Shown one piece after another: positions 4,424 through 23,796 of a stretch of DNA of 47,538 bases. A model generated the notes under the pieces. That model was not told the origin of the DNA. It saw nothing but the letters and a program-made list of their open reading frames with translations, and made no database searches. The stretch spans positions 1-47,538 of the forward strand of contig JADEXV010000026.1 in the NCBI GenBank assembly GCA_015206945.1. Reading direction: 5' to 3'. Each line of letters starts with the position of its first letter. Position 1 is the stretch's first letter. The DNA is from Nostocales cyanobacterium LEGE 12452. GTDB lineage: Bacteria > Cyanobacteriota > Cyanobacteriia > Cyanobacteriales > Nostocaceae. Made by a program: the position numbers and the translations under genes.

Positions 4424-4495
4424 GGGCGATTAGCACAGGGGTAGCGCACATCCTTCACACGGATGGGGTCACTGGTTCAAATCCAGTATCGCCCA
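4424..4495 (+). tRNA. tRNA-Val (anticodon CAC), CAST attachment gene
   Basis: A 72-nt cloverleaf: acceptor stem GGGCGAT pairs with ATCGCCC (4488-4494), followed by discriminator A and no encoded CCA. The anticodon stem CATCC/GGATG encloses the loop TTCACAC, giving anticodon CAC (valine, GTG codons). The T arm is ACTGG-TTCAAAT-CCAGT. The gene is intact. Its D-arm to anticodon-loop segment (4444-4460) is the protospacer of the transposon's homing spacer, and the transposon starts 10 bp after the discriminator base, so insertion leaves the tRNA functional. Confidence 0.95.
4441..4460 (+). other. PAM (GTA) and protospacer of the homing crRNA
   Basis: GTA at 4441-4443 fits the GTN PAM known for Cas12k. 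The following 17 bases, GCGCACATCCTTCACAC, match the truncated-repeat spacer at 4732-4748 in 16 of 17 positions; the single difference is C in the gene versus T in the spacer at position 10, which would give a tolerated rU:dG wobble. From the base after the PAM to the base before the transposon is 62 bp, inside the 60-66 bp window reported for ShCAST. Confidence 0.9.
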
Positions 4496-4505
4496 CTCAT
4501 GTAGA

Positions 4506-4627
4506 TGTACATTCGCAAATTAAATGTCGCAATTCGCAAATTAATGTCGTTTTTTGCAAATTAGCGTCTCTATTTATTAAATAAAACAGTTGCCTTATTT
4601 CTAATATCATTAGCAAATTAATGTCGC
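4506..4627 (+). repeat. CAST end, tRNA-proximal, with four TnsB-type repeats
   Basis: The outermost TGTACA is followed by repeats of the type TTCGCAAATTAAATGTCGC at about 4511-4530, 4532-4549, 4552-4570 (TTTGCAAATTAGCGTC) and, after a gap, 4609-4627 (TTAGCAAATTAATGTCGC). Three tight copies and one spaced copy match the end structure known from ShCAST, where TnsB binds such repeats. Confidence 0.9.
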
Positions 4628-4731
4628 TGGAAAGCAGAATTATCACTGTCGGCTAACAAAGCAATAATTGTGTTGAAGCAATCTGGACTATTATAATTAA
4701 TAGTATCAAGATTAGTTCAGTAATCTAAATG

Positions 4732-4768
4732 GTGTGAAAGATGTGCGCCTTTCAACCCTCCCATAGCA
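4732..4768 (-). ncRNA. Truncated repeat with homing spacer (delocalised crRNA)
   Basis: On the minus strand a 20-nt degenerate copy of the repeat 3' half (4768-4749, TGCTATGGGAGGGTTGAAAG) is followed by the spacer GCGCACATCTTTCACAC (4748-4732). The canonical repeats end GGCTAGGGGTGGGTTGAAAG, so the last eight bases are identical and the upstream part has diverged. The spacer matches tRNA-Val beside a GTA PAM. Type V-K elements are known to use such a short, delocalised guide separate from the array to home to tRNA genes. It lies 118 bp beyond the last array repeat in the direction of transcription and may be read from the same transcript. Confidence 0.9.
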
Positions 4769-4886
4769 TTAAAGTGCAATGATAATAACTTTAAACGTCA
4801 AGTTTAATTCAACGCACCATTAATTAGATGGAATAGTTGATAAAACCTAGATCAAAAATGCTATCTTTGCGATTTAGATAAAATGA

Positions 4887-4995
4887 CTTTCAACCCACCC
4901 CTAGCCGGGATGGTTGTTGAAACCCAAGCTTTGTACTGCCCAAACTCGATTCGGGCGGCTTTCAACCCACCCCTAGCCGGGATGGTTGTTGAAAC
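4887..4995 (-). CRISPR. Type V-K mini CRISPR array, two repeats
   Basis: Two identical 37-bp repeats (4887-4923 and 4959-4995) reading on the minus strand GTTTCAACAACCATCCCGGC... ending GGGTGGGTTGAAAG, the canonical V-K repeat. They enclose one 35-bp spacer (4924-4958, minus strand starting CCGCCCGAATCGAGTTTGGG). Sequence after the second repeat (4886 downward, TCATTTTATCTAAATCGC on the minus strand) may act as a second spacer, but no third full repeat closes it. The array reads in the same direction as cas12k and the tracrRNA. The spacer has no match inside the window that I can see. Confidence 0.95.
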
Positions 4996-5077
4996 TCTAC
5001 CCGTCTAGAACCCTTGCTATAAAAGCTTTCCATACACATAATTTGGCAGGTCTGCTTAAAAAGTCTCGAATTGCAAA

Positions 5078-5114
5078 TTAAAAAACTAAATGCATTGACA
5101 CACTAGTTTTTTAA
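5078..5114. terminator. Inverted repeat between tracrRNA and array
   Basis: TTAAAAAACTA (5078-5088) and TAGTTTTTTAA (5104-5114) form an 11-bp AT-rich stem with a 15-nt loop. It lies after the tracrRNA 3' end in the minus direction. It could end the tracrRNA transcript or be a processing structure; the lack of GC pairs makes it a weak terminator. Confidence 0.4.
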
Positions 5115-5184
5115 GTCAAGACTGGATAAGGGTTTTAAAGTTTTGGCGGGACTCCAGGGATTTTGCTCCCGCTTTGACACGCCA

Positions 5185-5442
5185 AAAAAATATTTGGAGG
5201 GTTCCCCCGACGAAGGGGGTGATTCAGTAGCCACCACTGTGGTAATCCACACCGTTATGAATAACGACTATGGCTAAAAGCCTTACTTCTTATTGCTGGG
5301 AGCGCACCTATCCTGTCTTGCGACAGCAGCATCAGAAGCGGGCAGCTACCAGGGTCAGAAAGCATGACGGTCTTCCAACCGCCAAACTAACCCAGATTTT
5401 TCACAGTACATTGGCTCAAAAGAGCATGAACTGCGGCGCTGT
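5185..5442 (-). ncRNA. Cas12k tracrRNA
   Basis: Read on the minus strand, this stretch matches the ShCAST tracrRNA as I remember it: AGCGCCGCAGTTCATGCTC near the start, GGGTTAGTTTG, CTTTCTGACCCTGGTAGCTG in the middle, GACAGGATAGGTGCGCTCCC, then GTGGCTACTGAATCACCCCC and a GGGGGAACCCTCC hairpin before the 3' end, whose CCCTCC pairs with the GGTGGG of the repeat. It sits between cas12k (45 bp upstream on the same strand) and the array, the normal V-K order. The 5' end near 5442 is set by a TATAAT-like box at about 5451-5456; the 3' end near 5185 is approximate. A 68-codon open frame on the opposite strand here is a chance frame. Confidence 0.9.
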
Positions 5443-5486
5443 TATAAAAATATTATATTTTCTAGGTTCGGATTAGTGAATTAAAT

Positions 5487-7394
5487 TTAAGCGGCTTGAC
5501 GTTCTTGGTAAGCAAAGACGGCTAAAATGCCCGCTTTTTCTTGTGGACTACCTTTGATTGGCTGTGTACCAATTTCAGTAGAAATTCCGACTTTTGCAGC
5601 TTGGGATTTAATACTTTCAATTAATCGGCCGTAACTCCAGCGATGAATGCTTATACGATATTCTTTGGCATATTTTTGTTGAGCTTCCTTGTAACCAGGA
5701 CATTTCTTTTCTGCTCTAGATTGGATTTCGCTACTGATTTGCTCACGCATATCACGGAGTTTTGGGATAACTATGCTGTCTGCTTGATAGGTTTTGGCGA
5801 TCGCAATAATTGCATCTGCTAATAACCTATCTACATATTGCCCTAACTCTGATTCACCAAAGGAGGTTGGCGCATTCTGTTTCTGAGCTTTGTGTCGTTC
5901 GTGAGATAGGCGTTGCTGTTGTTGTCGCTGACGATTGAGAAGATTGTAGTTTTTACCAAGTAGTTGTTTGACGCTGCGATAAGCTAGAACTTCATTTTTA
6001 ACAACATCTACCACCGCTACAGTGACTGGCTTTTCTAGACCAAAACTAACGCCAACTAGGATTGAGGGTTGACCTTGATAATTAGGCTTGCTGGGGCGAG
6101 GGAAAGGGTTATTAATTCGATCTAGCGTGGATTGCTGACGAGTGATAAAAGCTTGTTGTTCATCGTTGAGGTCATCTTTCTGTTTTGTTACAGTTAAAAT
6201 TTTGGTAATTTTTGTGACTTTCTCCTGAATTACTTGTTGAGTTCCTTCAGTAGTCAACAACCGAGTATCTAAAGCACAATAAAGATTCAGTTGATTTACT
6301 TTCCAGGCCTCACCTTTTTCTTCTCTTGGCAACCAAGCAAGTCTTCCTGAACACAGAGTGAACACACTGCTTGAGTATTGCTTTTTATTACTGCGTTTAA
6401 TTTCTTGATCCTCTAGAAAGCGTTGGAAGTAGTGCAAATGACGTTTGTCGCAGTAAATCTCAAAGATCAGTTTTCTGAAATCCTTGCCCTTGAACCGAAC
6501 AAAAAGACGATTTTTATCATTCTTTAACCATGTTATATCTTCTTTAGATTCGTAAGCCACAGGAAAGGGAACATCAGCAGTTTTTCTTAAAAGTGCTGCT
6601 TGCCAAGCTGTTGTCTCTTTTTCATTTTGAGCTACATTAGCTGTAGCAATTTCTAAAGTTTCTAACCACTCTTCTCCTGTCAAATCTCTACCTTTCGGTA
6701 TGCGGCTTTGAAGTTGGTCTTTTAATCGCTCAATTTCTATTTCCTTTTTGCGTCTATTTCTAGTAAATTCTTCTGGATCTTCGTCGAGTTCACTGATTTT
6801 ACACTTATTTTTGAGCAGATATGCGAGAGCGCAACGAGTAAGAGGGTCTTGTGTTTCTCCGTAAGTATTTAAGAGAATTTGGAAAAGTGAAGATTTTTTA
6901 GACTTTGTAGATTTTTTAGTCTTTTTGCCCTTTTTCTGGTTGCTATTCTGCTCGGACTTGGGGGTAAATTTGGCAAGAATTTCAGTGGCTTTAGTACGAA
7001 TTAAGTTTAAGCTACATTGACTTTCTTGTTCGAGTTCTAGATCGCTTTTGAGCATTTTCAGCCAACGCTCTTTCCCTTCTATTTGGTACTTTCTACGTTT
7101 TTGTAATGCAAACCAGGATTTATATACATAATCCACTAAAGCGATCGCAGAAGTGTAAAAGCGTCCAGGTTGATCAGCAAAACGCTCTTGAGTTTTGAGT
7201 GAGTTAACAAGCTTTTTGGGTAATTGAGTAGGTAGTTTGCCTTCTTCTAGCCAGGTTTCAAATCCTGGGTGCTTTCCTACCTGTAGCAACAGTTCATTGA
7301 TAAGTGGTGTATTTTTTTCAGCCATAAGTTCCCACAGTTGACGGAGAGTGTCTTCTTCCGCAACCAAGCGACATTGAATTGTAATAACGCTCAT
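5487..7394 (-). CDS. cas12k: Cas12k, CRISPR effector of the CAST
   Basis: RNA-guided, nuclease-dead effector that recognises target DNA and recruits TniQ, TnsC and TnsB. The 635-aa protein has the usual Cas12k length and an N-terminus (MSVITIQCRL, then PLINELLLQVG and SAIALVDYVYKSW) close to known family members. The RuvC region is degenerate, as in all Cas12k: in motif I near residue 448 GVSFGLEKP has serine where nucleases have aspartate; motif II near 543 reads IVIPKL with no catalytic glutamate; motif III near 615-620 lacks the final aspartate. The start ATG has GAGGAC 5 nt upstream. It is divergent from the small ribbon-helix-helix gene at 7557, with repeats between them overlapping its promoter. 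Confidence 0.97.
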   Translation of the reverse strand: MSVITIQCRLVAEEDTLRQLWELMAEKNTPLINELLLQVGKHPGFETWLEEGKLPTQLPKKLVNSLKTQERFADQPGRFYTSAIALVDYVYKSWFALQKRRKYQIEGKERWLKMLKSDLELEQESQCSLNLIRTKATEILAKFTPKSEQNSNQKKGKKTKKSTKSKKSSLFQILLNTYGETQDPLTRCALAYLLKNKCKISELDEDPEEFTRNRRKKEIEIERLKDQLQSRIPKGRDLTGEEWLETLEIATANVAQNEKETTAWQAALLRKTADVPFPVAYESKEDITWLKNDKNRLFVRFKGKDFRKLIFEIYCDKRHLHYFQRFLEDQEIKRSNKKQYSSSVFTLCSGRLAWLPREEKGEAWKVNQLNLYCALDTRLLTTEGTQQVIQEKVTKITKILTVTKQKDDLNDEQQAFITRQQSTLDRINNPFPRPSKPNYQGQPSILVGVSFGLEKPVTVAVVDVVKNEVLAYRSVKQLLGKNYNLLNRQRQQQQRLSHERHKAQKQNAPTSFGESELGQYVDRLLADAIIAIAKTYQADSIVIPKLRDMREQISSEIQSRAEKKCPGYKEAQQKYAKEYRISIHRWSYGRLIESIKSQAAKVGISTEIGTQPIKGSPQEKAGILAVFAYQERQAA

Positions 7395-7459
7395 GGTGTC
7401 CTCAGCTTTGTAGATTCGGTAACACTGACAGGATTGTTAATTGTTTTTTTACTTCTAAT

Positions 7460-7487
7460 ATTGTAGCGCAATGCCGTAATAGCGCAA
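7460..7487 (-). promoter_or_regulatory. Predicted cas12k promoter
   Basis: On the minus strand TTGCGC (7487-7482) and TACAAT (7465-7460) are separated by 16 bp, about 65 bp before the cas12k ATG. The boxes overlap the direct repeats at 7464-7492, which suggests the promoter is controlled by a protein binding there. Confidence 0.55.
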
Positions 7488-7492
7488 TGCCG
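7464..7492. promoter_or_regulatory. Direct-repeat operator between cas12k and the RHH gene
   Basis: The 13-mer TAGCGCAATGCCG occurs twice, at 7464-7476 and 7480-7492, a 16-bp period (about one and a half helical turns). It overlies the predicted cas12k promoter and lies 65 bp before the ribbon-helix-helix start. Ribbon-helix-helix proteins often bind short repeated half-sites, so this is a natural operator candidate for repression of cas12k and autoregulation. Confidence 0.6.
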
Positions 7493-7556
7493 CAAATGTT
7501 TTTTTACTGAGAGGCTGTGCAAAAATGAAAGCCGCAAGCTTTGGCTTCAAATTAGG

Positions 7557-7730
7557 ATGGCAGAAGAAACTAGAGAAGTTCGGGGTAGACTCCCTAAAGA
7601 CTTAAAAATCGCCTTTGAAATTGCCTGTGCGCGTCTGGAATTGACCCAGACTGCGGCTTTGGAGGAGGCGATTAGAGATTGGTTGGCAAAAAAAGATTCC
7701 CCTGCTGGTGGAGAGTCACAGGGGAGTTAA
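7557..7730 (+). CDS. Small ribbon-helix-helix (Arc-type) regulator
   Basis: A 57-residue protein, MAEETREVRGRLPKD... ending GESQGS. The alternating pattern EVRGRLP followed by two helices (about residues 14-27 and 31-44, with TQTAALEEAIRDWL) is the ribbon-helix-helix shape: one beta strand that would sit in the DNA major groove and two helices for dimerisation. It is transcribed away from cas12k. V-K CASTs are known to carry small repressors next to cas12k, the best studied being the MerR-type CvkR; this one belongs to a different fold and is presumably a functional substitute (inference). Start: ATG at 7557 preceded by a weak TTAGG. Confidence 0.8.
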   Translation: MAEETREVRGRLPKDLKIAFEIACARLELTQTAALEEAIRDWLAKKDSPAGGESQGS

Positions 7731-7993
7731 AGGGTTATGGTCAAAAATACTGGAGTAATTGTATAATATATATCATATTTTTTCTTGATTACTGCTTTGT
7801 CAGCCTTTGTGAGAAGGCGAGGTTTACAGCTACAACAATCGATAAGTTCAATCTAGGCTGAGGAGTTTTAGATTGCATTAATTATGTAATTTTTTTGACC
7901 GTGGCGTAGCACTGAATCACACGCTCATTTCACCTTGTAGGTGCAAAATTATGAGCCAAGCTATTAATATTAAAAATCCCACAGTAAAGCTAA
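7731..7993. other. Leader of the R-M operon
   Basis: AT-rich stretch of 263 bases between the RHH gene and hsdM. It should carry the R-M operon promoter; TATAAT-like runs occur near 7762-7775 but no unique pair can be chosen. A 20-codon frame starting ATGAGCCAAGC near 7951 overlaps the hsdM start; it could be a leader peptide but has no support beyond position. Confidence 0.4.
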
Positions 7994-9508
7994 ATGTTCG
8001 AGCAAACTTTTAAAAATATTGATGATGTTCTCTGGAAAGAGGCGGGTTGTACTACAGAGTTAGATTACACGGAGCAAACCTCTTGGCTGCTGTTTCTGAA
8101 GTATTTGGATGATTTGGAGCAGGAAAGGGCGCTAGAGGCGGAACTGGCTGGCAAGCCATACGAATTTATTATTGATGAGGCACATCGCTGGTCATCTTGG
8201 GCAGCACCGAAAAAAGCGGACGGTACATTGGATCATGATAATGCGCTGATTGGCGATGATTTGATTGATTATGTCAACCGCAAGTTATTCCCATATTTAC
8301 AGAGTTTCAAGCAACGGGCTACTAGTCCAGATACAATCGAATACAAGATTGGGGAAATTTTTAGCGAGATTAAGAATAGGTTTCAAAGCGGCTACAGCTT
8401 GCGGGATGCGCTGGAATATATTGATGAGCTACGGTTTCGATCGCAACAGGAGAAACACGAGCTATCGCATCTCTATGAAGCCAAAATCAAAAATATGGGT
8501 AATGCAGGGCGTAATGGTGGGGAATATTACACGCCGCGTCCGTTGATTCGGGCAATGATTCAGGTGGTGAAGCCGAAGATTGGTGATCGCATTTATGATG
8601 GTGCTTGTGGTTCGGCTGGGTTTTTGTGCGAGAGTTACGACTATTTACGTCGGGGTAAGCTGACAACAAAAGAGCTTGAGATTCTTCAAAAACATACGTT
8701 TACGGGTAAAGAAAAGAAAAGTTTGGCGTATGTGATTGCGATCATGAATATGATTTTGCATGGCATTGATGCGCCGAATATTATCCACACCAACACGCTG
8801 ACGGAAAATCTCAGTGATATTCAAGACAAGAATCGCTTTGATGTCATCTTGGCTAATCCGCCATTTGGGGGGAAAGAACGCAAGGAAGTACAGCAGAATT
8901 TCCCGATTAAGACAGGGGAAACGGCGTTTCTGTTTTTGCAGCATTTCATCAAAATTCTGAAGATGGGCGGTAGGGCGGCGGTAGTAATCAAAAACACGTT
9001 TCTGTCAAATTCGGATAATGCTTCGCGGGCGTTGCGTCAAGAGCTTTTGAGTAGTTGCAATCTGCACACGATTTTGGATTGTCCGAGTGGGACTTTTATC
9101 GGGGCAGGGGTTAAGACGGTGGTGCTGTTTTTTGAGAAAGGAAAGCCCTTTGACTCCGTTCAGGGAACGCCTTTATTTTCTCAGGAAAAACCTTTAACTC
9201 AGGGAATGGCTACTCAAAAAATTTGGTATTACCAACTCGCTCCGGGGCGGAATATGGGTAAAACCAATTCCCTGAATGATGAGGATTTATGCGAGTTTGT
9301 GGAGTTACAGGCTAGGTTTGCGGAAACAGAAAAGTCTTGGCTGGTGGATATTGCTGATTTGGATCGGGAATCGTTTGATTTATCGGTGAAGAATCCAAAT
9401 AAAGCTGAGGAATCACTGTTACGAGAACCGCAGGAAATTTTGGATGAGATTGGGGCTTTGGATGCGGAGAGTGCAGAAATTTTGGCGGGTATTGGGGGAA
9501 TGTTGTGA
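7994..9508 (+). CDS. hsdM: Type I restriction-modification, methyltransferase subunit
   Basis: Adenine-N6 methyltransferase subunit of a type I R-M system; with HsdS it protects host sites, and with HsdR it forms the nuclease. The 504-aa protein begins MFEQTFKNIDDVLWKEAGC, the typical HsdM_N domain (to about 160). The N6_Mtase core follows: GGEYYTPRPLI near 176, SAM-binding motif I DGACGSAGFL at 202-211 (usually DPACGSGGFL) and catalytic NPPF at 288-291. Its stop overlaps the hsdS start by 4 bp (GTGA), so the two are translationally coupled. Confidence 0.95.
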   Translation: MFEQTFKNIDDVLWKEAGCTTELDYTEQTSWLLFLKYLDDLEQERALEAELAGKPYEFIIDEAHRWSSWAAPKKADGTLDHDNALIGDDLIDYVNRKLFPYLQSFKQRATSPDTIEYKIGEIFSEIKNRFQSGYSLRDALEYIDELRFRSQQEKHELSHLYEAKIKNMGNAGRNGGEYYTPRPLIRAMIQVVKPKIGDRIYDGACGSAGFLCESYDYLRRGKLTTKELEILQKHTFTGKEKKSLAYVIAIMNMILHGIDAPNIIHTNTLTENLSDIQDKNRFDVILANPPFGGKERKEVQQNFPIKTGETAFLFLQHFIKILKMGGRAAVVIKNTFLSNSDNASRALRQELLSSCNLHTILDCPSGTFIGAGVKTVVLFFEKGKPFDSVQGTPLFSQEKPLTQGMATQKIWYYQLAPGRNMGKTNSLNDEDLCEFVELQARFAETEKSWLVDIADLDRESFDLSVKNPNKAEESLLREPQEILDEIGALDAESAEILAGIGGML

Positions 9509-10749
9509 AGAATAACTGGGAAAAGAAGAAGATAGGGGAACTCTGCAAACTTTCTCAAGGACTAGCAATTAATGTCAAAACAAAACATTATCTAGTTGAA
9601 AAAAGTGATTTGCCACTATTGAGAATCAAGGATCTTAAAAATAACACAGTAGAACAATATGTCGATCCAAATAATTATCCAAAAAACTGTTTGGTTACTG
9701 AGAAGGATTTGATTTATACAAGAACAGGACAAATTGGGCTGGTTTTTACTGGAAGGTTTGGAATTTTACACAATAACAGCTTTAAAATTGAACCTGACAA
9801 GTCTTTGCTAAGAGAGTATCTTTTTTTGTTTTTGCAGAGTGAGAGCTTCAAAAACCAAATATTAAAATTAGCTTCAAGAACAGCACAACCAGATATTACG
9901 CACAAAATTTTTAAGGAGCAGATTATTTTTGTTCCACCGATATCTGAACAAAAGCGGATTGTGGCAATTTTGGATGAGGCGTTTGAGGGGATTGATAGAG
10001 CGATCGCAAACACCGAAAATAACCTCACCAACTCCCGCGAACTATTTGAAAGCTATCGAAATTCTATCTTGACTCAGAATAATAAAGAGTGGAAAGAAAC
10101 AACACTGGGTGCAGAAATAGATTTAATGACTGGATTTCCATTTAAGAGCAGCGGATATACAGATTCAGACCAGAGCATCCGATTACTTCGAGGGGATAAT
10201 ATTGTTCAAGGTGCGCTTCGTTGGGATGATGTTAAGAAGTGGCCAGAATCTGAGATAAATGAATACCTTAGTTATCAACTCAAAGAGGGCGATGTAGTTC
10301 TTGCGATGGATCGTCCTTGGGTGAAAGCGGGTTTGAAACACGCGATGATCTCTTCCGATGATTTGCCATGCTTACTTGTTCAACGAACTGCTTGTCTTCG
10401 TGGTAATAAAAATATTAACAATCGATTTCTTATCTATTTGATAGGTAGTCATTCATTTATACAACATATACTGAGTAATCAAACTGGCATTGGAGTTCCG
10501 CATATTAGTGGAAAACAGATTCAAAGCTTCAAATTTCTGAAACCATTTCTCTCTGAGCAGAATTTCATTAGTGATAGTCTCGACGATCTAAGGTCAAAAT
10601 CACAACGCCTCGAAACCATCTACCGCCAAAAACTTGCCGCACTCAACGAACTCAAACAATCCATCCTGCAAAAAGCCTTCACTGGCGAACTCACCGCAGA
10701 CACCCCTAACCAAGTAAGGAAAACCGCTAAGGAGGGAATTGCAGCATGA
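9505..10749 (+). CDS. hsdS: Type I R-M, specificity subunit
   Basis: DNA sequence-recognition subunit that directs HsdM and HsdR. The 414-aa protein has the expected two half-subunits: target-recognition domain 1 (about residues 1-150), a conserved helical spacer (EQKRIVAILDEAFEGIDRA, then NLTNSRELFESYRN), target-recognition domain 2 starting at WKETTLGAEID, and the second conserved helix near the C-terminus (LAALNELKQSILQKAFTGEL). The start is GTG, overlapping the hsdM stop. The end overlaps the next gene by 4 bp (ATGA). TRD2 shows no sign of truncation. Confidence 0.93.
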   Translation: MKNNWEKKKIGELCKLSQGLAINVKTKHYLVEKSDLPLLRIKDLKNNTVEQYVDPNNYPKNCLVTEKDLIYTRTGQIGLVFTGRFGILHNNSFKIEPDKSLLREYLFLFLQSESFKNQILKLASRTAQPDITHKIFKEQIIFVPPISEQKRIVAILDEAFEGIDRAIANTENNLTNSRELFESYRNSILTQNNKEWKETTLGAEIDLMTGFPFKSSGYTDSDQSIRLLRGDNIVQGALRWDDVKKWPESEINEYLSYQLKEGDVVLAMDRPWVKAGLKHAMISSDDLPCLLVQRTACLRGNKNINNRFLIYLIGSHSFIQHILSNQTGIGVPHISGKQIQSFKFLKPFLSEQNFISDSLDDLRSKSQRLETIYRQKLAALNELKQSILQKAFTGELTADTPNQVRKTAKEGIAA

Positions 10750-12164
10750 TTACCCTTGAAACTCTTGAAAAATGGCTGCTTGTACCCACAGAGACAGAAC
10801 ATCTTGAATTTAAAGAAGCCAAACTACAGTTTGATTCGACTAAACTGCTGAAATATTGTGTAGCACTAGCGAATGAAGGAGGTGGTTATATTGTTTTGGG
10901 TATTACCGATAAGCGACCTCGCCAAGTAGTAGGTTCCATAGCTTACTCAAAAGCAGGAGAACTGAACGGTATTAAGTCAAGAATAGTTAATGAACTCAGA
11001 TTTCGGGTAGAAGTTACAGAATTACAACATCCAAATGGTCGAGTACTAGTTTTTGAAGTGCCTACCCGTCCTGTAGGTCGTGCATTGGACTATGAGGGAG
11101 CCTACCTGATGAGAGTTGGTGAAGAACTGCGACCAATGACTCCTGATATGCTGAAGCGGATTTTTGCTGAAGACCAACAAGATTGGTTTTCCCAACCCGC
11201 TCGATGTGACGCAAGTCCTGATGATGTAATAGCCCTTCTAGATACCCAAACCTACTTTGAACTGCTAAAAATCTCATATCCGACTAGCCGCGATGCTGTC
11301 TTAGAACGATTGCAGAGCCAAGATTTAATCAAACAGACAGTACAGGGTTGGACAATCAGCAACATAGCCGCTATCCTTTTGGCAAAAAAACTGGATGCCT
11401 TTTCCCCTGCATTGGCTCGTAAAGCTCCCCGCGTTGTTATATATGAAGGTATCAATAAGCTAAAAACTCGTGACGACAACACAGGCAACCGAGGATATGC
11501 CGTTGGCTTTGGCAGATTAGTAGATTTTGTTCACTCAGCAGCACCGCAAAATCGCTTTATCGAAGAAGTTGTGCGAGAAGAAGTAAAGATGTTCCCGGAA
11601 CAGGCTTTACGAGAACTTATTGCTAATGCTTTAGTGCATCAGGATTTTCTAGCAACAGGTACTTCAGTGATGATCGAGATGTATAGCGATCGCATTGAGA
11701 TATCTAATCCCGGCATTCCGCCTATTAAGGTGGAGCGATTTATTGATGAAAATCGCTCCCGTAACGAACAACTCGCAGACATAATGCGACGTTTCGGTAT
11801 ATGTGAAGAAAAAGGCAGTGGCATTGACAAAGTTGTAAGCGCAGCAGAAGATTTTCAACTACCCGCACCAGATTTTCGAGTAGGTGACACACGCACTACA
11901 GCAGTGCTGTTTGCCCATCAAGATTTCGCCGGCATGAGCAAAACAGACCGAATTCGAGCCTGCTATCAGCATTGCTGTCTGCTGTATGTTAGCAATCAAC
12001 GAATGTCTAACCAAACCCTACGGGAGCGGTTCCGTCTAAGTGACTCGCAAGTAGCAACCGTTTCTCTGATTATAGGAGCTACCAAAGAAGCTGGCTTGAT
12101 CAAAGCAGATGAATCCGAATCAACCTCTACCCGCTATGCTCGTTATCTCCCTTTTTGGGCATAA
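10746..12164 (+). CDS. AlbA_2 (Schlafen-type) and HATPase_c_4 protein
   Basis: A 472-aa protein of the COG2865 type. An N-terminal AlbA_2 (Schlafen-fold) domain holds HLEFKEAKL and ANEGGGYIVLGITD (about residues 18-60). A GHKL-type ATPase region follows, ELIANALVHQDF with YSDRIEISNPG and GICEEKGSGI (about 285-360), and then a winged-helix-like C-terminus. Members are variously called ATP-binding transcriptional regulators or helicase-related; the role is not settled. Such genes recur inside type I R-M operons of bacteria. Here the ATG overlaps the hsdS stop (ATGA), so it is co-translated with the R-M genes and is probably an accessory or regulator of the system (inference). Confidence 0.85.
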   Translation: MITLETLEKWLLVPTETEHLEFKEAKLQFDSTKLLKYCVALANEGGGYIVLGITDKRPRQVVGSIAYSKAGELNGIKSRIVNELRFRVEVTELQHPNGRVLVFEVPTRPVGRALDYEGAYLMRVGEELRPMTPDMLKRIFAEDQQDWFSQPARCDASPDDVIALLDTQTYFELLKISYPTSRDAVLERLQSQDLIKQTVQGWTISNIAAILLAKKLDAFSPALARKAPRVVIYEGINKLKTRDDNTGNRGYAVGFGRLVDFVHSAAPQNRFIEEVVREEVKMFPEQALRELIANALVHQDFLATGTSVMIEMYSDRIEISNPGIPPIKVERFIDENRSRNEQLADIMRRFGICEEKGSGIDKVVSAAEDFQLPAPDFRVGDTRTTAVLFAHQDFAGMSKTDRIRACYQHCCLLYVSNQRMSNQTLRERFRLSDSQVATVSLIIGATKEAGLIKADESESTSTRYARYLPFWA

Positions 12165-12390
12165 AAGTGTTTTAACGCAAACCGAGACAAGTAACTCTCA
12201 AATTCTGAAACCCTTGCAGAACCAACATAAAAGTGTTTTAACGCAAACCGAGACAAGTAACTCTCAAATTCTGAAACCCTTGCAGAACTAACAAAAAAGT
12301 GTTTTAACGCAAATCGAGATGAGTCACTCTCAAACTCTGAAACCCTTGCAGAACTAACCAAAAAGTGTTTTAACGCAAATCGAGATGAGC
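12163..12390 (+). repeat. 66-bp tandem repeats before hsdR
   Basis: Three full 66-bp units begin at 12163, 12229 and 12295 with AAAAGTGTTTTAACGCAAA; a partial fourth starts at 12361 and runs to about 12390, six bases before the hsdR ATG. Units 1 and 2 are nearly identical, unit 3 differs at a handful of positions, so they arose by tandem duplication. The period is a multiple of three, which is why long open frames run through on both strands, but none looks like a real protein. The partial unit ends in the hsdR ribosome-binding area. Confidence 0.9.
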
Positions 12391-12395
12391 GAAAT

Positions 12396-14750
12396 ATGAA
12401 CGAAGCCGAAACCCGTGCCGAACTAATTGACCCCGCACTAAAAACCGCAGGCTGGGGAGTTATTGAAGATAGTCGCATCCGCCGCGAAGTTATTGCCCCT
12501 GGTCGCTTAGTTGGCAACGGTAAACGCGCTCAATCAGACATCGCCGATTATGTCCTGGTTTATCGCGGTGAAAAACTTGCCGTCATCGAAGCGAAAAAAC
12601 GTGACTTACGAGATACCGAAGGTTTAGGGCAAGCCAAAAAATACGCTGAAAAGTTGCAGACTCGATTCGCCTACTCCACAAATGGCATCGGAATCTACCA
12701 AGTAGATATGCACACAGGGGCAGAAGGCTACATCAATCAATATCCCACCCCGGAGCAACTTTGGGAAGCCACCTTTAGCGAAGATAATGAGTGGCGCGAT
12801 CGCTTTGCTGCCATCCCCTTTGAAGACAAAAGCGGCACATGGGAAGCCCGTTATTATCAACATAATGCCATTAAGCACGTCCTAGAAGCAATTTGCCAAG
12901 GACAAGACCGGATTTTGTTAACGATGGCAACTGGCACGGGTAAAACCTTCATCGCCTTCCAACTCGCCTGGAAACTCTTTCAAAGTCGTTGGAACCTCAG
13001 CCGACAACCCACCCGTCGTCCGCGAATTTTGTTTTTAAGCGATCGCAATATCTTAGCCAACCAAGCCTATAACTCATTCTCTGCCTTCCCCGACGATGCC
13101 CTAGTCCGCATCGACCCCGAAGCCATCAAAAAACGGGGTCGAGTCCCCAAAAATGGCAGTATCTTTTTTACGATTTTCCAGACTTTTATGACTGGACGGG
13201 ACGACGCTGGCAATCCTACGCCCAAATTCAGCGACTATCCCCCCGACTTCTTTGACTTTATTATCATTGATGAATGTCACCGAGGCGGAGCCAGTGACGA
13301 AAGCACCTGGCGGGGCATTTTAGAATACTTCTCCCCAGCAGTACAACTGGGACTCACCGCCACTCCTAAACGAAAATATAACGCAGACACCTATGCCTAC
13401 TTCGGCGAGCCAGTCTATACCTATGCCCTCAAAGACGGCATTAACGACGGGTTTCTTACTCCCTTTAAAGTCAGGCAAATCGAAACTAACCTAGATGAAT
13501 ATATTTACAGCACCGAAGATGAACTGATCGAAGGTGCAGTAGACGAAGCCAGAACCTACACTGAAGCTGACTTCAACCGTATCATTGAAATTAGCGATCG
13601 CGAACGCTACCGGGTGCAGCTGTTCATGGAAGAAATCGACCAGAATCAAAAAACTCTGGTGTTTTGTGCCAATCAACCCCACGCTCTAGCTGTGCGGGAT
13701 TTAATCAACCAAATGAAGATTAGCAGTGACCCTAATTACTGTGTTCGCGTCACCGCCGATGATGGGAAACTAGGAGAGCAGCACCTCAGCAACTTTCAAG
13801 ACAATGAGAAAACTATCCCCACCATTCTCACCACTTCTCAAAAGCTTTCCACTGGGGTTGATGCCCGGAATGTTCGTAACATTGTGCTGATGCGCCCCAT
13901 CAACTGGATAATTGAATTTAAACAAATTATTGGTCGCGGTACTCGTCTATTTGATGGGAAAGACTACTTCACTATTTATGATTTCGTCAAAGCCTACGAA
14001 CGCTTCGACGATCCTGAATGGGACGGCGAACCCCAAGAACCTGTTCTCGTCAAAATTGCCAGAGGAGGAGAGAAATCAGGTGGATACAACGACTCTACAA
14101 CAGATAGTGGTATAAATAGAGGCAAAAATAGAAACGAAATTGCAGAAGTTCCCAACCCCAAAACCATCAAAATCAAACTCGCCGATGGTAAAGAACGAAC
14201 TCTCCAGCACCGAATGTCTACCAGCTTCTGGAGTCCAGACGGTAAACCTATGAGCGCCGCAGAATTTGTGCAACGTCTCTTTGGTGAAATTCCTGAACTA
14301 TTTAGAGATGAAGACGAATTAAGAGCAATCTGGAGTCGCCCTGACACCCGTAGAGCTTTATTAGAAGGACTGGCAGAGAAGGGCTACGGGGAAGAACAAC
14401 TCACAGAAATTAGTCGCCTAATTGATGCTGAGAAAAGCGATTTATATGATGTGCTGGCTTATATCGCCTATGCCTCACCACCTATAAGCCGCCGAGAGCG
14501 TGTCCTCGCTCACAAATCATTAATTTTCTCGCGCTATATCGGCAAACAACAAGAATTTCTCGACTTTATACTCGAACAATACATCAAAGCTGGGGTGGGG
14601 GAACTCGATCGCACTAAATTACCTCAACTGTTGGAGTTGAAATATCATACCGTTCGTGATGCTGTAGAAGAACTAGGAAGCGTTGCAAATATCAGTCAAG
14701 TATTTATCGGGTTTCAGCAGTATTTGTATTTGCAGGACAGAGCTGCTTAA
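12396..14750 (+). CDS. hsdR: Type I R-M, restriction and translocase subunit
   Basis: ATP-driven DNA translocase and endonuclease of the type I system. The 784-aa protein has, in order, a PD-(D/E)XK nuclease domain at the N-terminus (D51 in IADYVL, E65 and K67 in VIEAK), a superfamily 2 helicase with Walker A ATGTGKTF at 178-185, DECH box at 292-295, LTATPKR, and motif VI QIIGRGTRLF, then an EcoEI-R-type C-terminal region. The size matches EcoEI/type IB-like HsdR. The ATG at 12396 follows the tandem repeat array, which separates it by 231 bp from the AlbA_2 gene, so it may have its own promoter or leader control. Confidence 0.94.
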   Translation: MNEAETRAELIDPALKTAGWGVIEDSRIRREVIAPGRLVGNGKRAQSDIADYVLVYRGEKLAVIEAKKRDLRDTEGLGQAKKYAEKLQTRFAYSTNGIGIYQVDMHTGAEGYINQYPTPEQLWEATFSEDNEWRDRFAAIPFEDKSGTWEARYYQHNAIKHVLEAICQGQDRILLTMATGTGKTFIAFQLAWKLFQSRWNLSRQPTRRPRILFLSDRNILANQAYNSFSAFPDDALVRIDPEAIKKRGRVPKNGSIFFTIFQTFMTGRDDAGNPTPKFSDYPPDFFDFIIIDECHRGGASDESTWRGILEYFSPAVQLGLTATPKRKYNADTYAYFGEPVYTYALKDGINDGFLTPFKVRQIETNLDEYIYSTEDELIEGAVDEARTYTEADFNRIIEISDRERYRVQLFMEEIDQNQKTLVFCANQPHALAVRDLINQMKISSDPNYCVRVTADDGKLGEQHLSNFQDNEKTIPTILTTSQKLSTGVDARNVRNIVLMRPINWIIEFKQIIGRGTRLFDGKDYFTIYDFVKAYERFDDPEWDGEPQEPVLVKIARGGEKSGGYNDSTTDSGINRGKNRNEIAEVPNPKTIKIKLADGKERTLQHRMSTSFWSPDGKPMSAAEFVQRLFGEIPELFRDEDELRAIWSRPDTRRALLEGLAEKGYGEEQLTEISRLIDAEKSDLYDVLAYIAYASPPISRRERVLAHKSLIFSRYIGKQQEFLDFILEQYIKAGVGELDRTKLPQLLELKYHTVRDAVEELGSVANISQVFIGFQQYLYLQDRAA

Positions 14751-14814
14751 TTGAGCAGGTCGCTAAAATTAGTCAGAAGATTAATTCAAAGCTACATAAC
14801 CATAGCTAAAAATG

Positions 14815-14900
14815 GCGATCGCTTCTCGCCATCTCCGTGCTGTGGGAGATGGACGCTGTGAGTGCGTAGGTTTAGCCCGTCGTAGACATCGCCATAACTC
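14815..14900. repeat. Dispersed cyanobacterial repeat after hsdR
   Basis: Contains CCATCTCC/GGAGATGG inverted arms (14829-14836 and 14845-14852) and the string GTAGCCCGT-like 'tttagcccgtcgtagacatcgcc', of which a close relative (ggcgtagcccgtagtaggcatcgc) is at 19374-19398. Such GC-rich modules are spread through Nostoc genomes. It lies at the 3' side of the R-M operon and may act as an mRNA end. Confidence 0.5.
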
Positions 14901-14963
14901 TAGATTCGGCATTAAATGTATAATTGCTGAGTATTTTGTATATTTACTGGTTAAAGCTCTTAA

Positions 14964-15344
14964 ATGATTACCGTTACACCAGAGGAAATTAGTCAGTTTC
15001 GCAGCCAGTTGGCAGATAATTCAGAGGCTTTAGCAGCTTTGGATGCTATAGAAGAGTGTCAGGGAAATCTGGAAGCAGCAGCACAGTTAATTGCTGTTGA
15101 GACAACCGAAGCAGAAGTCAGCTTGAGGGGAGATTCAAATTATTTAGAGAAATTAGCACAAAAACTCAGCAAAATTATCTGTCAGGAAGAATTTGACGAC
15201 TTGATGACGGGAGTATTGACAGCTGCGATCGCCACCTTAGCAGTAAGTGGTAATATTCCCATAGCTCTGGCAACTCCAGTAGTAATTTATGTTGCCAAAA
15301 TCGGCGTAAAGCAGTTTTGTGAAGCTACCAAACCTGAACCCTAA
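14964..15344 (+). CDS. Unknown small protein with hydrophobic C-terminal segment
   Basis: A 126-aa protein starting MITVTPEEISQFRSQLADN. Residues 1-60 are acidic and helical (ALDAIEECQGNLEAAAQLI resembles a UBA-like or death-effector-like helical bundle, weakly). Residues about 82-112 form a long apolar stretch (TGVLTAAIATLAVSGNIPIA then TPVVIYVAKIGV) that could insert in a membrane. It converges on, and overlaps by 4 bp, the TPR-CHAT gene. No named family is known to me. Its position beside a CHAT protease raises the possibility that it is a cleavage substrate or partner of the protease (inference only). Confidence 0.6.
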   Translation: MITVTPEEISQFRSQLADNSEALAALDAIEECQGNLEAAAQLIAVETTEAEVSLRGDSNYLEKLAQKLSKIICQEEFDDLMTGVLTAAIATLAVSGNIPIALATPVVIYVAKIGVKQFCEATKPEP

Positions 15345-19234: not shown

Positions 19235-19373
19235 CTAGATCATCAGAATAATTCAACATTAACGCTCTAAATTCCAGAAAAGTGGAGAATTTCATCACTG
19301 ATGTTGCGTTTTTGAGGACGAGCGATAATCCCCCTATTGCCCAGTGGCAATTTCACTTAACAGCAGGATGCGT

Positions 19374-19398
19374 TGGCGTAGCCCGTAGTAGGCATCGC
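19374..19398. repeat. Dispersed repeat copy
   Basis: A short GC-rich string (gttggcgtagcccgtagtag then catcgc) related to the one at about 14868-14892. The surrounding 19235-19442 interval upstream of the CHAT gene shows no gene. Confidence 0.5.
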
Positions 19399-19442
19399 TA
19401 ATTGTTGATGAGTGCGATCGCTCAACTCCCAACGCCCTAAAA

Positions 19443-19703
19443 TCACACCACTTCAACGCTAGAAACTACCTTGCCATCGTCATCATTGGGTAAATATTCC
19501 AAAAGCTCCCCAGGTTGACAATCCAAAGCCTTACAAATGCCGTTTAACCTTTCTGGGGCTAATCGTGGCATTTCGTCAACCTTACGCAGTCTGTACACTG
19601 AATTTTCAGTTATTCCTAAAGCCTCAGCTAAATCCTTGTTCCTGACTCGCTTTCGCGCCATCACTTCATTTAATTTCCAGCGAATCACTTTATCCATAGG
19701 CAT
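19443..19703 (-). CDS. XRE-family (Cro/C1-type) regulator
   Basis: An 86-residue protein with a helix-turn-helix at about residues 12-66: KLNEVMARKRVRNKDLAEAL, then GITENSVYRLRKVDEMPRLA, ending in a CKALDCQPGELLEYLP motif typical of Cro/C1-type and YozG-like regulators. It starts with an ATG pair (M1 and M3). Upstream, within 19730-19840, lie an inverted repeat and several ATCTAC motifs, a probable operator region. It may repress its own gene and the divergent gene at 19924, or cargo genes such as the downstream CHAT gene on the same strand (inference). Confidence 0.85.
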   Translation of the reverse strand: MPMDKVIRWKLNEVMARKRVRNKDLAEALGITENSVYRLRKVDEMPRLAPERLNGICKALDCQPGELLEYLPNDDDGKVVSSVEVV

Positions 19704-19732
19704 ATTACTACATCCCCAGTTTAGTAGCTGTT

Positions 19733-19838
19733 AGATGTAGATTTCTCTACTTGTCAGTATCTAAGCTTACAAGTAGACTTATAACACTCTGATTTTTATA
19801 AATCTACACTTGACGCATATCTACGCGTCACGTAGATT
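19733..19838. promoter_or_regulatory. Operator-like cluster upstream of the XRE gene
   Basis: An inverted repeat TCTACTTGT (19746-19754) / ACAAGTAGA (19769-19777), flanked by further ATCTAC or GTAGAT motifs (gatgtagatt near 19733, aatctacact at 19800, atatctacgc at 19818, cgtagatta at 19831). TGACGC / GCGTCA arms also pair around 19811-19829. The repeated half-site suits an XRE dimer. Confidence 0.5.
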
Positions 19839-19852
19839 AAGTTATAGAAAAA

Positions 19853-19896: not shown

Positions 19897-19923
19897 TGCA
19901 ACCCCATTGATGAGGTCATTCAC

Positions 19924-20226: not shown

Positions 20227-20258
20227 TAACTTTCATCCATTAATTTTCCATTACCTGG

Positions 20259-20287: not shown

Positions 20288-20302
20288 ATTTGGAGTTTTT
20301 TG

Positions 20303-20857
20303 TCAATAGTGCTTCTGACGCTTCACCATTTTTGCAAAAGGCAAGGAACAATGAGCGCATTCTCTTTGCACCCAATTGGAAGGAATTAGGAAGGGTGTTT
20401 CACAGTTAGTGCATTTTGTTAACAAACCCAACTGGTGGCGATCGCACTTGATTTTCTCCTTAAACTGCCACTCAATGCGGTGACAAGGAACTTCTGCATA
20501 GCAAGCACCACATAACCGAATTGGTCTAGGTTTCATAGTTACACCCTTTGGTGGCAGCATCTCATATAACCTCTCGATCTGCACACCAATTACCTTACTC
20601 AAAGCTTTTAATTCCTCAAGACTCGGAAAGGGATTGAAATAAAGCTTCTCCCATCGCGTTGTGATAGCACCAAGACCAGTAATTTTTCCTAAAGAATATC
20701 CTGAAGGAAGACTGTTAGCCTTAAATCGGCGCAAGCGTCCTAGATAATGACTGATGCTTTCATTTGGGTATGGCTCAACATAGCCCAACCTTGGCAGAAT
20801 GTCATAATCTTCATTTATTGCTATTTCTGTTTTCTGGGGGAATGTATTTTCTGCCAT
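20303..20857 (-). CDS. tniQ: TniQ, short V-K type
   Basis: Bridges the target complex (Cas12k with tracrRNA) and the TnsC filament. The 184-aa length is typical of V-K TniQ, much shorter than TnsD or type I-F TniQ. The N-terminal TniQ motif EPYPNESISHYLGRLRR is at about 28-44. Two zinc-binding groups follow: C116xxC119 with CH125-126 and C138/H141, and C149xxC152 with C167xxC170. It overlaps tnsC by 47 bp in another frame, which suggests translational coupling; the last codons of tnsC contain its ribosome site. Confidence 0.95.
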   Translation of the reverse strand: MAENTFPQKTEIAINEDYDILPRLGYVEPYPNESISHYLGRLRRFKANSLPSGYSLGKITGLGAITTRWEKLYFNPFPSLEELKALSKVIGVQIERLYEMLPPKGVTMKPRPIRLCGACYAEVPCHRIEWQFKEKIKCDRHQLGLLTKCTNCETPFLIPSNWVQRECAHCSLPFAKMVKRQKHY

Positions 20858-21665
20858 ACCGACTAGCGATTTTTTCTAAAATGCCTTGATCAACTTTGCC
20901 AAAGCCATTCTTGAGTGAATGTAAAACTGCCTTAGTGAGTATTTTTACTAGCAGTCCTATTCGCGCACCTGTACTTTCAGCTAGAATCTCGAATATAGGA
21001 CTGCAAAATAAATTAGAAGCTTCAGGCAGAGCCAGAATATCGAATTCAATTGTACTTAGTGTTTTCTTAAAATCATCGTATTCTAGGCGGTCAAACTCAT
21101 ACAGTGTTGGAAAGCTAGTCAACAAATCAAAATCGGCCAAGATTTTATCTAGCTCCTGTCCTCCAACTAAGACGACAGGAACATGACATTCGTCAAAAAG
21201 TTGCTTGAGGTCTAGCAGTGCTTCTCTTTGGAGATTTTCAGCATTGTCAATAATGACCTGTTCTATCCCAAATAATTCAAGACTACCAGCCAATCTTGGA
21301 CGTAAATCTACCCGCTTACCTGTTGGTGCTGCGTGGTTAATATCCTTAAGAATTTGCGAAAATAGACGTTTGGAACTTGATGCTGACCAAGCTCTGACAT
21401 ACGAAAGTTTTTTCCTATCCTCTTCCCGATAGTGACGAGACGCTCGACTTTTCCCCACATCTCTGGGGCCAATTACTCGACCGCATTGTTTCAGTATCCG
21501 CAACTCATCTAACCATCTGAAATATTCTGAAGCACGATCAGTTGGTATGAAGCAATTATTGAATATCTCTTCAACTTCAACAACTTTAGCAAGTTGAGCA
21601 TTTAAATCTAGCTCAGGAGCTAAGGCTTCAACCGAGGACTGAATAGCAAGTTGCGATCGCGCCAT
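20811..21665 (-). CDS. tnsC: TnsC, AAA+ regulator
   Basis: AAA+ ATPase that polymerises on target DNA and passes the target signal to TnsB. The 284-aa protein has Walker A GPRDVGKS at 66-73 and Walker B VIIDNAE at 137-143. A GGQEL sensor-1-like segment is near 168. The length matches V-K TnsC (about 275-280 aa) and lacks the long tails of Tn7 TnsC. It starts 3 bases after the tnsB stop and overlaps tniQ, forming a compact tnsB-tnsC-tniQ operon. Confidence 0.96.
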   Translation of the reverse strand: MARSQLAIQSSVEALAPELDLNAQLAKVVEVEEIFNNCFIPTDRASEYFRWLDELRILKQCGRVIGPRDVGKSRASRHYREEDRKKLSYVRAWSASSSKRLFSQILKDINHAAPTGKRVDLRPRLAGSLELFGIEQVIIDNAENLQREALLDLKQLFDECHVPVVLVGGQELDKILADFDLLTSFPTLYEFDRLEYDDFKKTLSTIEFDILALPEASNLFCSPIFEILAESTGARIGLLVKILTKAVLHSLKNGFGKVDQGILEKIASRYGRKYIPPENRNSNK

Positions 21666-21668: not shown

Positions 21669-23543
21669 TTACCAAATCTTCTTCAAATGTTGTTTACGGT
21701 TAGGGACAAGCAGCTTGTGTCTCTCCTGCTCTTGAGTGTCAACTTGACCAGATAGTTCTGGTTGCAATTCTGTTGTCTGAAGCTGTATTTCTTCCCTTGA
21801 AACTCTCTCTGGCAAGAGTTCCAGTTTTTCATCTCTCTTTGAAGAAACATTAGCTCTACTTTTCCTCAGTTCAACAACATTTGAGGTTTTCTTGGAAGCT
21901 GAACGTAGACGCTTTTGTTCTGAGCGTCTTTTTTCCTTTTTGTCTTCTTTACGTTCCTCTACAAGTTCCTTCCGTTTACCTAATGCTAATAAGGCATCAT
22001 AGTTAAAATGCTCCTTACGAGCTTGACTTCGCTCTTTATTCAAGGCTTTCAATTCTTCTATACTCAAATCATGGGTATCCATGTTCACGGCATGAGCATA
22101 GCCCAAAAAATCTTCTAAATTATCATTGGTTTCGCAACTGTAGATATATAAAGTCAGGATATGGTCTGGATCATATCTAAGCGTTACAAATTCACCTCTA
22201 TATGCATTGAGTGATTCTCCTCGATAAATCAGGTTCTCAAACTGTATAGATCCATGCGCTTGAACAACTCGTTGCGCTTCTTTCATCAAACAGATATCTA
22301 ATTCTCGCTCATCCAAAGGTTCAGGCAATTTTCCTCCCATTCCTGTAAACCAGCGCTCAAATCTTGTTTCGCGGGGATCTTTGGGATATGGTTCGTGGTT
22401 ATAAATATCACAAAAGAAACTAGCTAGGATCTTGTCTATATCTTGTATTGTCAAACACGCTTCTTTCTCTGCATTTTTAGGACGTTCCTGAACATTTGCC
22501 CCTGTATAACCAGGTAAATCTTTGAGAACTTGAGTATTAATAGTTTTAAAAATGCGTTCTACAATACCGCCTTCGGGAGGGCGATCGCGTAGTTCACACT
22601 GAAATCCTAGTTTTTTACCAATGGCTTTAAGATGTTTTGAGCGAAAATCTTTTCCACCATCAGTAAAAAAATATTGAAAAGGAGTCCCGTATATTTCCCA
22701 AACTTTATTTAACTTATAATCATCAGGGTAGTTTTTGGGCAAAATAGCGTGTCTTAAAGCTAAAGCCACCTCTGTAGAACCTGGTTGTTTGATCCATAAG
22801 CGGAAACCAACAATACAGCTTGAATAAGTATCCACAATAGTGGTTAGCCAAGGACGGTCAGACAATAAATTACCATCACTATCAACTATGCAAATATCCA
22901 GCTTAGTATGGTCGCATTGAATAATTTGGTTACTAAAGTCAGCCTTCAGTAGCTGTCCATCTAGTGTTACAACTGTCATCCAAGATCCTGAACCCGGATT
23001 TCTGACTTTTGTCTTCTGTTTCTGTTGTGCAATTAAAGGATCTAAAATCCTATAAACAGTAGCTTGATGAGGATAATCTCCTGCTTTGAGCTTAAGGTCA
23101 ACGATCGCGTGTCGCTTTACTTCGCGAACTATAGATGCTGGTGAAATTGGATGTTTGTTTTTAATACTTTTTTCATAAATTGCTTTGATAAATTTTTGCC
23201 AGTCTTCGCTGACTCGATGTTTTCCCTTATCTGAGCGTTGTACTCCTGCTGATTCTGATAACTTGTCATCATGGTATTGCTTCAGGAGACGTTCCACCTG
23301 GCGAGTAGAAACACCAAGAGTATTTGCAACAGCCTGCTTTCTCTGAGACTTAATTGTGCGATTCGGTGATTCAGCAAGCCACTGGATCAGATTAAATGTC
23401 AGTTTATGCCTATCTGATGTTTCCAGAATAATTTGGGATGGATCTACAACAAAATTACTCTTGTCAAGAAAAATAGCATCTGGAGCTTGCGTTAATTCTT
23501 CCGTGAATTCAAATTGTTTGTCTGCCATTGGAGTGAAAAACAC
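21669..23543 (-). CDS. tnsB: TnsB transposase (DDE)
   Basis: DDE transposase that binds the end repeats and joins the ends to target DNA. From the GTG at 23543 the product is 624 aa: N-terminal winged-helix DNA-binding domains (VANTLGVSTRQVERLLKQY at 72-90), then the retroviral-integrase-like core with D211 (IIQCDHTKLD), D295 (FTDGGKDF) and E329 (GGIVERIF), a mu-type beta barrel (GEFVTLRYDPDHI), and a charged C-terminal tail that in this family contacts TnsC. Residue spacing fits known V-K TnsB. An ATG at 23528 (MADKQFEF) is an equally good start. No tnsA is nearby, so only the 3' strand is expected to be cut. Confidence 0.96.
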   Translation of the reverse strand: MFFTPMADKQFEFTEELTQAPDAIFLDKSNFVVDPSQIILETSDRHKLTFNLIQWLAESPNRTIKSQRKQAVANTLGVSTRQVERLLKQYHDDKLSESAGVQRSDKGKHRVSEDWQKFIKAIYEKSIKNKHPISPASIVREVKRHAIVDLKLKAGDYPHQATVYRILDPLIAQQKQKTKVRNPGSGSWMTVVTLDGQLLKADFSNQIIQCDHTKLDICIVDSDGNLLSDRPWLTTIVDTYSSCIVGFRLWIKQPGSTEVALALRHAILPKNYPDDYKLNKVWEIYGTPFQYFFTDGGKDFRSKHLKAIGKKLGFQCELRDRPPEGGIVERIFKTINTQVLKDLPGYTGANVQERPKNAEKEACLTIQDIDKILASFFCDIYNHEPYPKDPRETRFERWFTGMGGKLPEPLDERELDICLMKEAQRVVQAHGSIQFENLIYRGESLNAYRGEFVTLRYDPDHILTLYIYSCETNDNLEDFLGYAHAVNMDTHDLSIEELKALNKERSQARKEHFNYDALLALGKRKELVEERKEDKKEKRRSEQKRLRSASKKTSNVVELRKSRANVSSKRDEKLELLPERVSREEIQLQTTELQPELSGQVDTQEQERHKLLVPNRKQHLKKIW

Positions 23544-23566: not shown

Positions 23567-23796
23567 GTACCATTAATTTGCTAAGAATGCGACATACAAT
23601 TTGATAAATGCCTAAATCTTAACAAACGACATTTAATTTGAGAATCTAGGATTTACGACATAGAAAATGCGAATTAGACAAATCTATTTTTTATGTGAGT
23701 AAATAGTGTGTAATCTTTACAGGGTAAAGGTTTTAGCTATTTAAATGCGGTTGCGACACTATCTGCGAATTGCGACATCTAATTTGCGAATGTACA
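23567..23796 (-). repeat. CAST end, tnsB side, with about six TnsB-type repeats
   Basis: Read inward on the minus strand from TGTACA at 23796: TTCGCAAATTAGATGTCGC, then ATTCGCAGATAGTGTCGC (about 23754-23771), a gap, ATTCGCATTTTCTATGTCGT (23655-23674), TCTCAAATTAAATGTCGTT (23625-23643), TATCAAATTGTATGTCGC (23589-23606) and TAGCAAATTAATGGTAC (23567-23583). The innermost copy lies just upstream of tnsB, so TnsB may control its own promoter. Confidence 0.88.

Follow-up and report, generated by a model that had tools for sequence, protein, structure and literature searches.

Saito et al. 2021 and a preprint by Hsieh and Peters from the same year are said to have described the delocalized crRNA homing of type V-K CASTs, a mode which, like the locus analysed here, combines a truncated repeat with a short spacer that lies apart from the array and matches a tRNA gene beyond the left end. 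Passages in two reviews credit the homing role in V-K elements to these two studies (PMC11406308, PMC8730458). A portion of the text of Ziemann et al. 2023 gives a truncated repeat (R*) of ~12 nt, a 17-nt anchor spacer, a GTN PAM and a distance of 46-82 nt to the left end, plus one case at 147 (PMC9938897); a comparison of R* with the tracrRNA was not found in that portion, and the word 'mismatch' is absent from the main text. According to part of a review, type I-F3 CASTs have atypical crRNAs in which a separate, diverged repeat sets the att-site guide apart and favours its use (PMC11406308). The guide described below likewise pairs a separate diverged repeat with an att-site spacer, but type I-F3 acts through TniQ and Cascade, whereas a V-K preference would act through tracrRNA pairing.

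The stretch of DNA that was analysed (hereafter the window) comprises 47,538 nt of contig JADEXV010000026.1 of Nostocales cyanobacterium LEGE 12452. It has the anchor/R* layout of Ziemann et al. 2023, that is, tRNA, left end, R* with 17 nt, array, tracrRNA, cas12k and a small reversed regulator gene, and its distance of 62 nt lies within the range of 46-82 nt given in the portion cited (PMC9938897). What sets it apart from delocalized crRNA homing as described is its target, tRNA-Val(CAC), with one wobble mismatch. The repeat-tracrRNA co-variation reported below is an addition of the present analysis; a literature search whose reach ended short of Saito et al. 2021 and Hsieh and Peters 2021 found no earlier report of R*-tracrRNA co-variation.

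Anatomy of the element

The element, which spans 4506-23796 of the window (19.3 kb) with all expected parts present (Table 1), is a type V-K CAST, having Cas12k, tnsB/tnsC/tniQ, an array and a tracrRNA. The genes tnsB, tnsC and a small tniQ sit at the right end (Pfam), a scan of 30 ORFs detected no TnsA family at E ≤ 0.001 (Pfam), and the array and the tracrRNA, the latter recognized by similarity, are placed between the left end and cas12k. The terminal motifs are inverted at the two ends of the element, and the repeated GCAAATTA..TGTCG motifs of the left end probably represent TnsB-like sites. Rfam CRISPR-DR15 matches occur at 4887-4923 and 4959-4995, and a search of plasmid and phage collections with the spacer between them (4924-4958) gave no match. 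Within and beside the tracrRNA region, a terminator-like element (5208-5196) and a promoter-like element (5480-5452) are consensus matches of a kind found about as often in shuffled sequence. The ribbon-helix-helix gene occupies the place of V-K regulators. Beside the type I restriction-modification set, the cargo includes a TPR-CHAT protein of 1297 aa (15341-19234), together a defence-like load.

Table 1. Features of the tRNA-Val(CAC) locus and its V-K CAST, with window coordinates and the basis of each assignment.
Feature	Position	Strand	Basis
tRNA-Val(CAC), homing site	4424..4496	+	ARAGORN; Rfam tRNA 61 bits
PAM GTA	4441..4443	+	sequence beside protospacer
Anchor protospacer	4444..4460	+	16/17 identical to spacer
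Left end (TGTACATTCG), repeated GCAAATTA..TGTCG motifs	4506..4575		sequence motifs
Homing cassette	4652..4886	-	alignable with L017 cassette, not with L006 or L014
17-nt anchor (homing) spacer GCGCACATCTTTCACAC	4732..4748	-	match to tRNA-Val
Truncated repeat R* (ATGGGAGGGTTGAAAG)	4749..4764	-	8/8 Watson-Crick with tracrRNA anti-repeat
CRISPR array, two 37-nt repeats and one 35-nt spacer	4887..4995	-	Rfam RF01329
tracrRNA region (ends approximate); anti-repeat AACCCTCC at 5203-5196	5181..5452	-	motif similarity
cas12k, 635 aa	5487..7394	-	NF038191, 947 bits, profile positions 2-629/629
Ribbon-helix-helix protein, 57 aa, divergent from cas12k	7557..7730	+	PF21432, E 8.6e-15
Cargo: hsdM, hsdS, AlbA_2 (Schlafen) protein, hsdR	7994..14750	+	Pfam-type domain matches
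tniQ	20303..20857	-	PF06527
tnsC	20811..21665	-	AAA_22/TniB
tnsB	21669..23543	-	Mu-transpos_C
Right end (..CGAATGTACA)	23754..23796		end motifs; ~50 nt inside cupin-like gene

The homing guide and its tRNA-Val target

The spacer GCGCACATCTTTCACAC (4732-4748, minus strand) and the protospacer GCGCACATCCTTCACAC (4444-4460, plus strand) differ solely at position 10, which is T in the guide and C in the tRNA gene. The second-best match to the spacer inside the window has 4 mismatches; assuming equal base frequencies, the window should contain ~2e-5 matches this good beside a GT PAM; and a search of the whole draft genome for the 17-mer with C or T at position 10, allowing up to 2 mismatches, returned the tRNA, the spacer and one 2-mismatch site. 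Upstream of the spacer, ...GGGAGGGTTGAAAG closely resembles the 3' part of the CRISPR repeat of the element (...GGGGTGGGTTGAAAG), and the left end begins (4506, TGTACATTCG...) exactly 62 nt from the PAM. An earlier note on this DNA had claimed a homing guide at tRNA-Val from a 16/17 spacer match behind a degenerate repeat, and its coordinates hold; the GTA PAM and the 62-nt insertion distance were both recomputed and came out as it had claimed, and its U:G wobble is geometrically correct, with the crRNA U opposite the G of the target strand.

On the strength of this sequence match, PAM, distance, truncated repeat and gene set, and of like anatomy in 80/109 loci, the guide at 4748-4732 is almost certainly the homing (anchor) guide of a type V-K CAST. 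Anchor spacers of this kind, also called delocalized crRNAs, are published for V-K CASTs, so the homing mode is already known. In the predicted sequence of events, a crRNA consisting of the truncated repeat and the 17-nt spacer would pair with the tracrRNA and load Cas12k, and the loaded Cas12k would bind tRNA-Val(CAC) over the section from D-arm to anticodon loop, beside the GTA PAM, and recruit TniQ-TnsC-TnsB; the element would then be inserted ~62 nt downstream, just beyond the 3' end of the tRNA gene, which would thus remain whole. Guide expression, Cas12k loading and transposition are all predictions from the DNA.

The right junction

Tn7-like insertion produces a target-site duplication of 5 bp. 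Such a duplication is absent here, the flanks reading GTAGA on the left (4501-4505) and CCTTT on the right. The left (tRNA-Val) and right flanks are different loci in four relatives (G240, G384, G403 and G427), and in G427 the two flank sites lie ~1.09 Mb apart on one contig and in opposite orientation. The right end falls ~50 nt inside a cupin-like gene (flank 23797-23846) and truncates it, and the gene is whole, at 113 aa, in relatives L146 and L149. A search of the genome of the window for the remaining half of the cupin gene came back empty, a result that alone shows little, and the DNA further upstream of the cupin gene in L146, searched in the same genome, yielded nothing beyond a 68% match and short repeats. 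The gene that lies downstream of tRNA-Val in relatives is located where contig C104 of G000, the genome of the window, ends, and the last 120 nt of that contig are without CAST sequence.

Because the right flank comes from another locus and a target-site duplication is absent, the window is not one simple undisturbed insertion at tRNA-Val but a rearrangement or an assembly join. Since the two sites in G427 are so far apart and in opposite orientation, this joint would follow from an inversion between two copies or from a replicative inversion. The same joint would arise if a copy of the element at tRNA-Val and a second copy in the cupin gene had been merged in assembly, and a draft of 551 contigs, flanks that are far apart in relatives (G427) and the missing duplication all agree with such a merger; the assembly nevertheless contains a single full left-end region, and the failure to find the other cupin half, which equally fits a real rearrangement with loss, also weighs against it. 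We regard an assembly join as a strong contender that falls slightly short of probable.

Anchor guides across Cas12k loci

The survey covered 109 loci, namely 28 from a contig search, 80 hand-picked regions (mostly the top of the matches listed in a Cas12k-family search of 388 order genomes) and the window, and an anchor guide was called where a repeat-like 3' end was followed by a 17-nt spacer with an upstream GTN-flanked match of at most 3 mismatches. Such a guide was present in 80/109 loci, window included, and in none when spacers were reversed. No anchor guide was called in the other 29/109, three of which end within ~200 nt of cas12k, and an alternative filter yields anchors in four more loci (L007, L012, L039 and L069). 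The protospacer is on a tRNA in 72/80 anchor loci, GTA is the PAM in 54/80 (GTN being demanded by the search), and the distance from the PAM to the TGTACA end is 36-67 nt in the 46/80 loci where that motif was found. By mismatches, 40 of the 80 guides have none, 31 one, 8 two and 1 three; these per-locus counts are not independent, at least L010/L051, L011/L063, L012/L069 and L024/L110 having been fetched twice, and the classes used below (54 spacer-target pairs and 52 combinations) are less dependent than loci, yet share ancestry. tRNA-Val(CAC) is the target in 3/80, that is, in the window, in L017 (0 mismatches) and in L036 (one mismatch, at position 11), and the matching spacer that the earlier note expected in related elements at this tRNA is therefore present in the only other survey loci of this kind.

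Among the matches listed, at least two or three Cas12k matches lie within ~10-35 kb of each other in G330:C1, G206:C35, G328:C195, G039:C50 and G169:C3; these are possible stacked CASTs, a natural setting for homing-cassette exchange.

The mismatch at position 10

Mismatches occur in 32 of the 54 distinct spacer-target classes, and the 31 classes with at most two each hold 39 in total, of which 4 fall at PAM-proximal positions 1-8 (binomial p ~1e-6, shared ancestry disregarded) and 10 at position 15, the most frequent site. Wobble-compatible transitions (spacer T/gene C, spacer G/gene A) number 20, the opposite transitions 5 and transversions 14, although given base composition the wobble excess is modest (T/C versus A/G, p 0.025; G/A versus C/T, p 0.19). 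The T-for-C of the window belongs to the commonest sort of mismatch, and the overall pattern looks like tolerated drift under seed constraint rather than selected weakening; the single C-to-T change in the guide is best read as tolerated drift as well.

An alternative interpretation is that the mismatch is selected, with a weakened guide lowering re-binding of the tRNA gene after homing, whether as a roadblock or through repeat insertion, and the earlier note had suggested in a similar vein that the mismatch may soften self-targeting. That 40/80 guides are imperfect, mostly by wobble-type changes at PAM-distal positions, accords with selection, but the other 40/80 are perfect, L017 at the same tRNA among them, the distribution is consistent with drift under seed constraint, and the composition-conditioned wobble excess is drawn from classes that share ancestry; we therefore consider selection unlikely. 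Softened self-targeting is unsupported by the same perfect guides and is also set against the description of Cas12k as nuclease-inactive in part of a published source (PMC10293859). Far less probable still is that the spacer was copied from a T-bearing tRNA of an earlier host. According to part of a review, closely related V-K CASTs can have different att sites (PMC11406308), which would have guides change hosts and targets; against this, the 22-nt tRNA-Val site is present in 17/388 order genomes with C in all 17, its T form occurs in 0/388 class genomes, and the L017 cassette, alignable with that of the window, has C in its spacer. A donor-allele origin is disfavoured, there being no T-bearing tRNA-Val among the 388 class genomes. 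Under the preferred reading of tolerated drift, the T of the window looks derived, since the similar cassette of L017 has a perfect spacer and no T-allele tRNA was found.

Two further observations concern mismatches elsewhere. Spacers for tRNA-Ala(CGC) recurrently mismatch at position 15, where some elements have A and others T, and that of L091 is perfect. A further, distantly related V-K CAST in the genome of the window (L034, G000:C13; Cas12k ~59% identical) has an anchor spacer that is likewise T-for-C at position 10.

Pairing of R* and array repeats with the tracrRNA anti-repeat

The anti-repeat was located after the conserved tracrRNA hairpin, independently of R*. Twelve of the 80 anchor loci were without the tracrRNA motif and 3 without the anti-repeat pattern, leaving 65, and 60 of these with an array call gave 52 combinations; R* was excluded from the array-repeat set by position, and the loose array filter lets in some false repeats. 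In the window, R* (GGAGGGTT) pairs 8/8 with the anti-repeat AACCCTCC and the array repeat (GGTGGGTT) 7/8, with a U-U at position 6 of the 8-bp helix. Compared with the commonest array repeat across the 52 combinations, R* pairs better in 35, equally in 14 and worse in 3, the exceptions being L034, L088 and L095; compared with the best array repeat in the 60 loci, it is better in 38, equal in 19 and worse in 3. A full 8-pair helix is formed by R* in 29/52 and by the array repeat in 3/52, array repeats usually having at least one non-Watson-Crick pair. The difference is greatest at position 6 (paired in 47/52 for R* against 17/52 for arrays), is smaller at position 3 (46/52 against 36/52), and is slightly in favour of arrays at positions 4 (51 versus 50 of 52) and 8 (42 versus 39 of 52). 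In L113, which lies outside the pattern and was judged by eye, R* fits and the array does not. When anti-repeats were shuffled among elements (5000 trials), the R* value was reached 0 times and the array value once; arrays too fit their own anti-repeat to some extent, so the contrast with R* is one of degree.

Co-variation was followed on a Cas12k tree made by a quick method, with L027 excluded (long branch), by counting tree-independent pairs, that is, rows that differ in anti-repeat on paths sharing no branch. Pooled over positions 3-8, R* follows the anti-repeat in 14.7 such pairs, opposes it in 1.2 and is unchanged in 8.1, and array repeats follow in 2.2, oppose in 0.3 and are unchanged in 17.4; single positions offer 1 to 9 pairs, below significance, and the trend is clear only in this pooling, which treats positions as independent.

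These patterns suggest that R* co-varies with the anti-repeat and that its fit is usually at least as good as that of array repeats and often better, and we infer that the homing crRNA would be the better tracrRNA partner in the 8-bp helix. An alternative reason for the difference is that R*, being without the 5' part of the repeat, relies on this helix alone, and full repeats can afford a mismatch; under both accounts the homing crRNA would be the partner that pairs better here. We put forward, as a tentative proposal that we hold slightly more doubtful than probable, that V-K CASTs tune the tracrRNA to the homing guide rather than to the array, that the homing crRNA outcompetes array crRNAs for tracrRNA/Cas12k and sets pathway choice, and that cassettes and left ends may be exchanged, changing the target tRNA.

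Relationships of the homing cassette

The stretch that begins with the array and ends with cas12k is ~94% identical between the window and L006 and L014, which home to tRNA-Thr and tRNA-Gly, respectively, and the first 48-58 left-end bases of both are >90% identical to those of the window (91% to L014 over the first 58 nt). Between the left end and the array, the window and these two loci have no match of ≥40 nt. Aligned with that of L017, the cassette at 4652-4886 agrees in 78% of columns on the upstream side of the spacer and in 71% on the downstream side, and with those of L006, L014 and L036 in about 50%; between L017 and the window, identity is 58% of Cas12k residues, 71% in the cas12k gene and 72% over the stretch 4424-4996. 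Two histories are compatible with these values, in that the window and L017 may have exchanged a cassette, or an old cassette may have been kept while closer relatives replaced theirs, and by either history, exchange or vertical descent, close relatives would swap homing cassettes. In relatives whose Cas12k is 90-95% identical, the homing target is a different tRNA. L049 and L094, 89% identical across 374 nt that take in the left end and 65-72% in pieces of the cas12k gene, offer what appears to be a clearer case of exchange than the window and L017.

A 25-bp exact relic of the left end lies at 930-954 of L162 (G000:C358), one base past a tRNA-Ala(CGC) (956-1028) to which related elements home, L008 and L041 among them; it is as if an earlier CAST had been seated at that tRNA.

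Implications for V-K CASTs

The window adds one more tRNA gene to the published homing mode. The mismatches found in nature serve as a field record of the guide positions that matter, and the R* comparison hints at a change to the repeat by which engineered V-K guides might be improved. The fit between R* and the tracrRNA provides a testable idea for how V-K CASTs may rank homing over array guides in nature.
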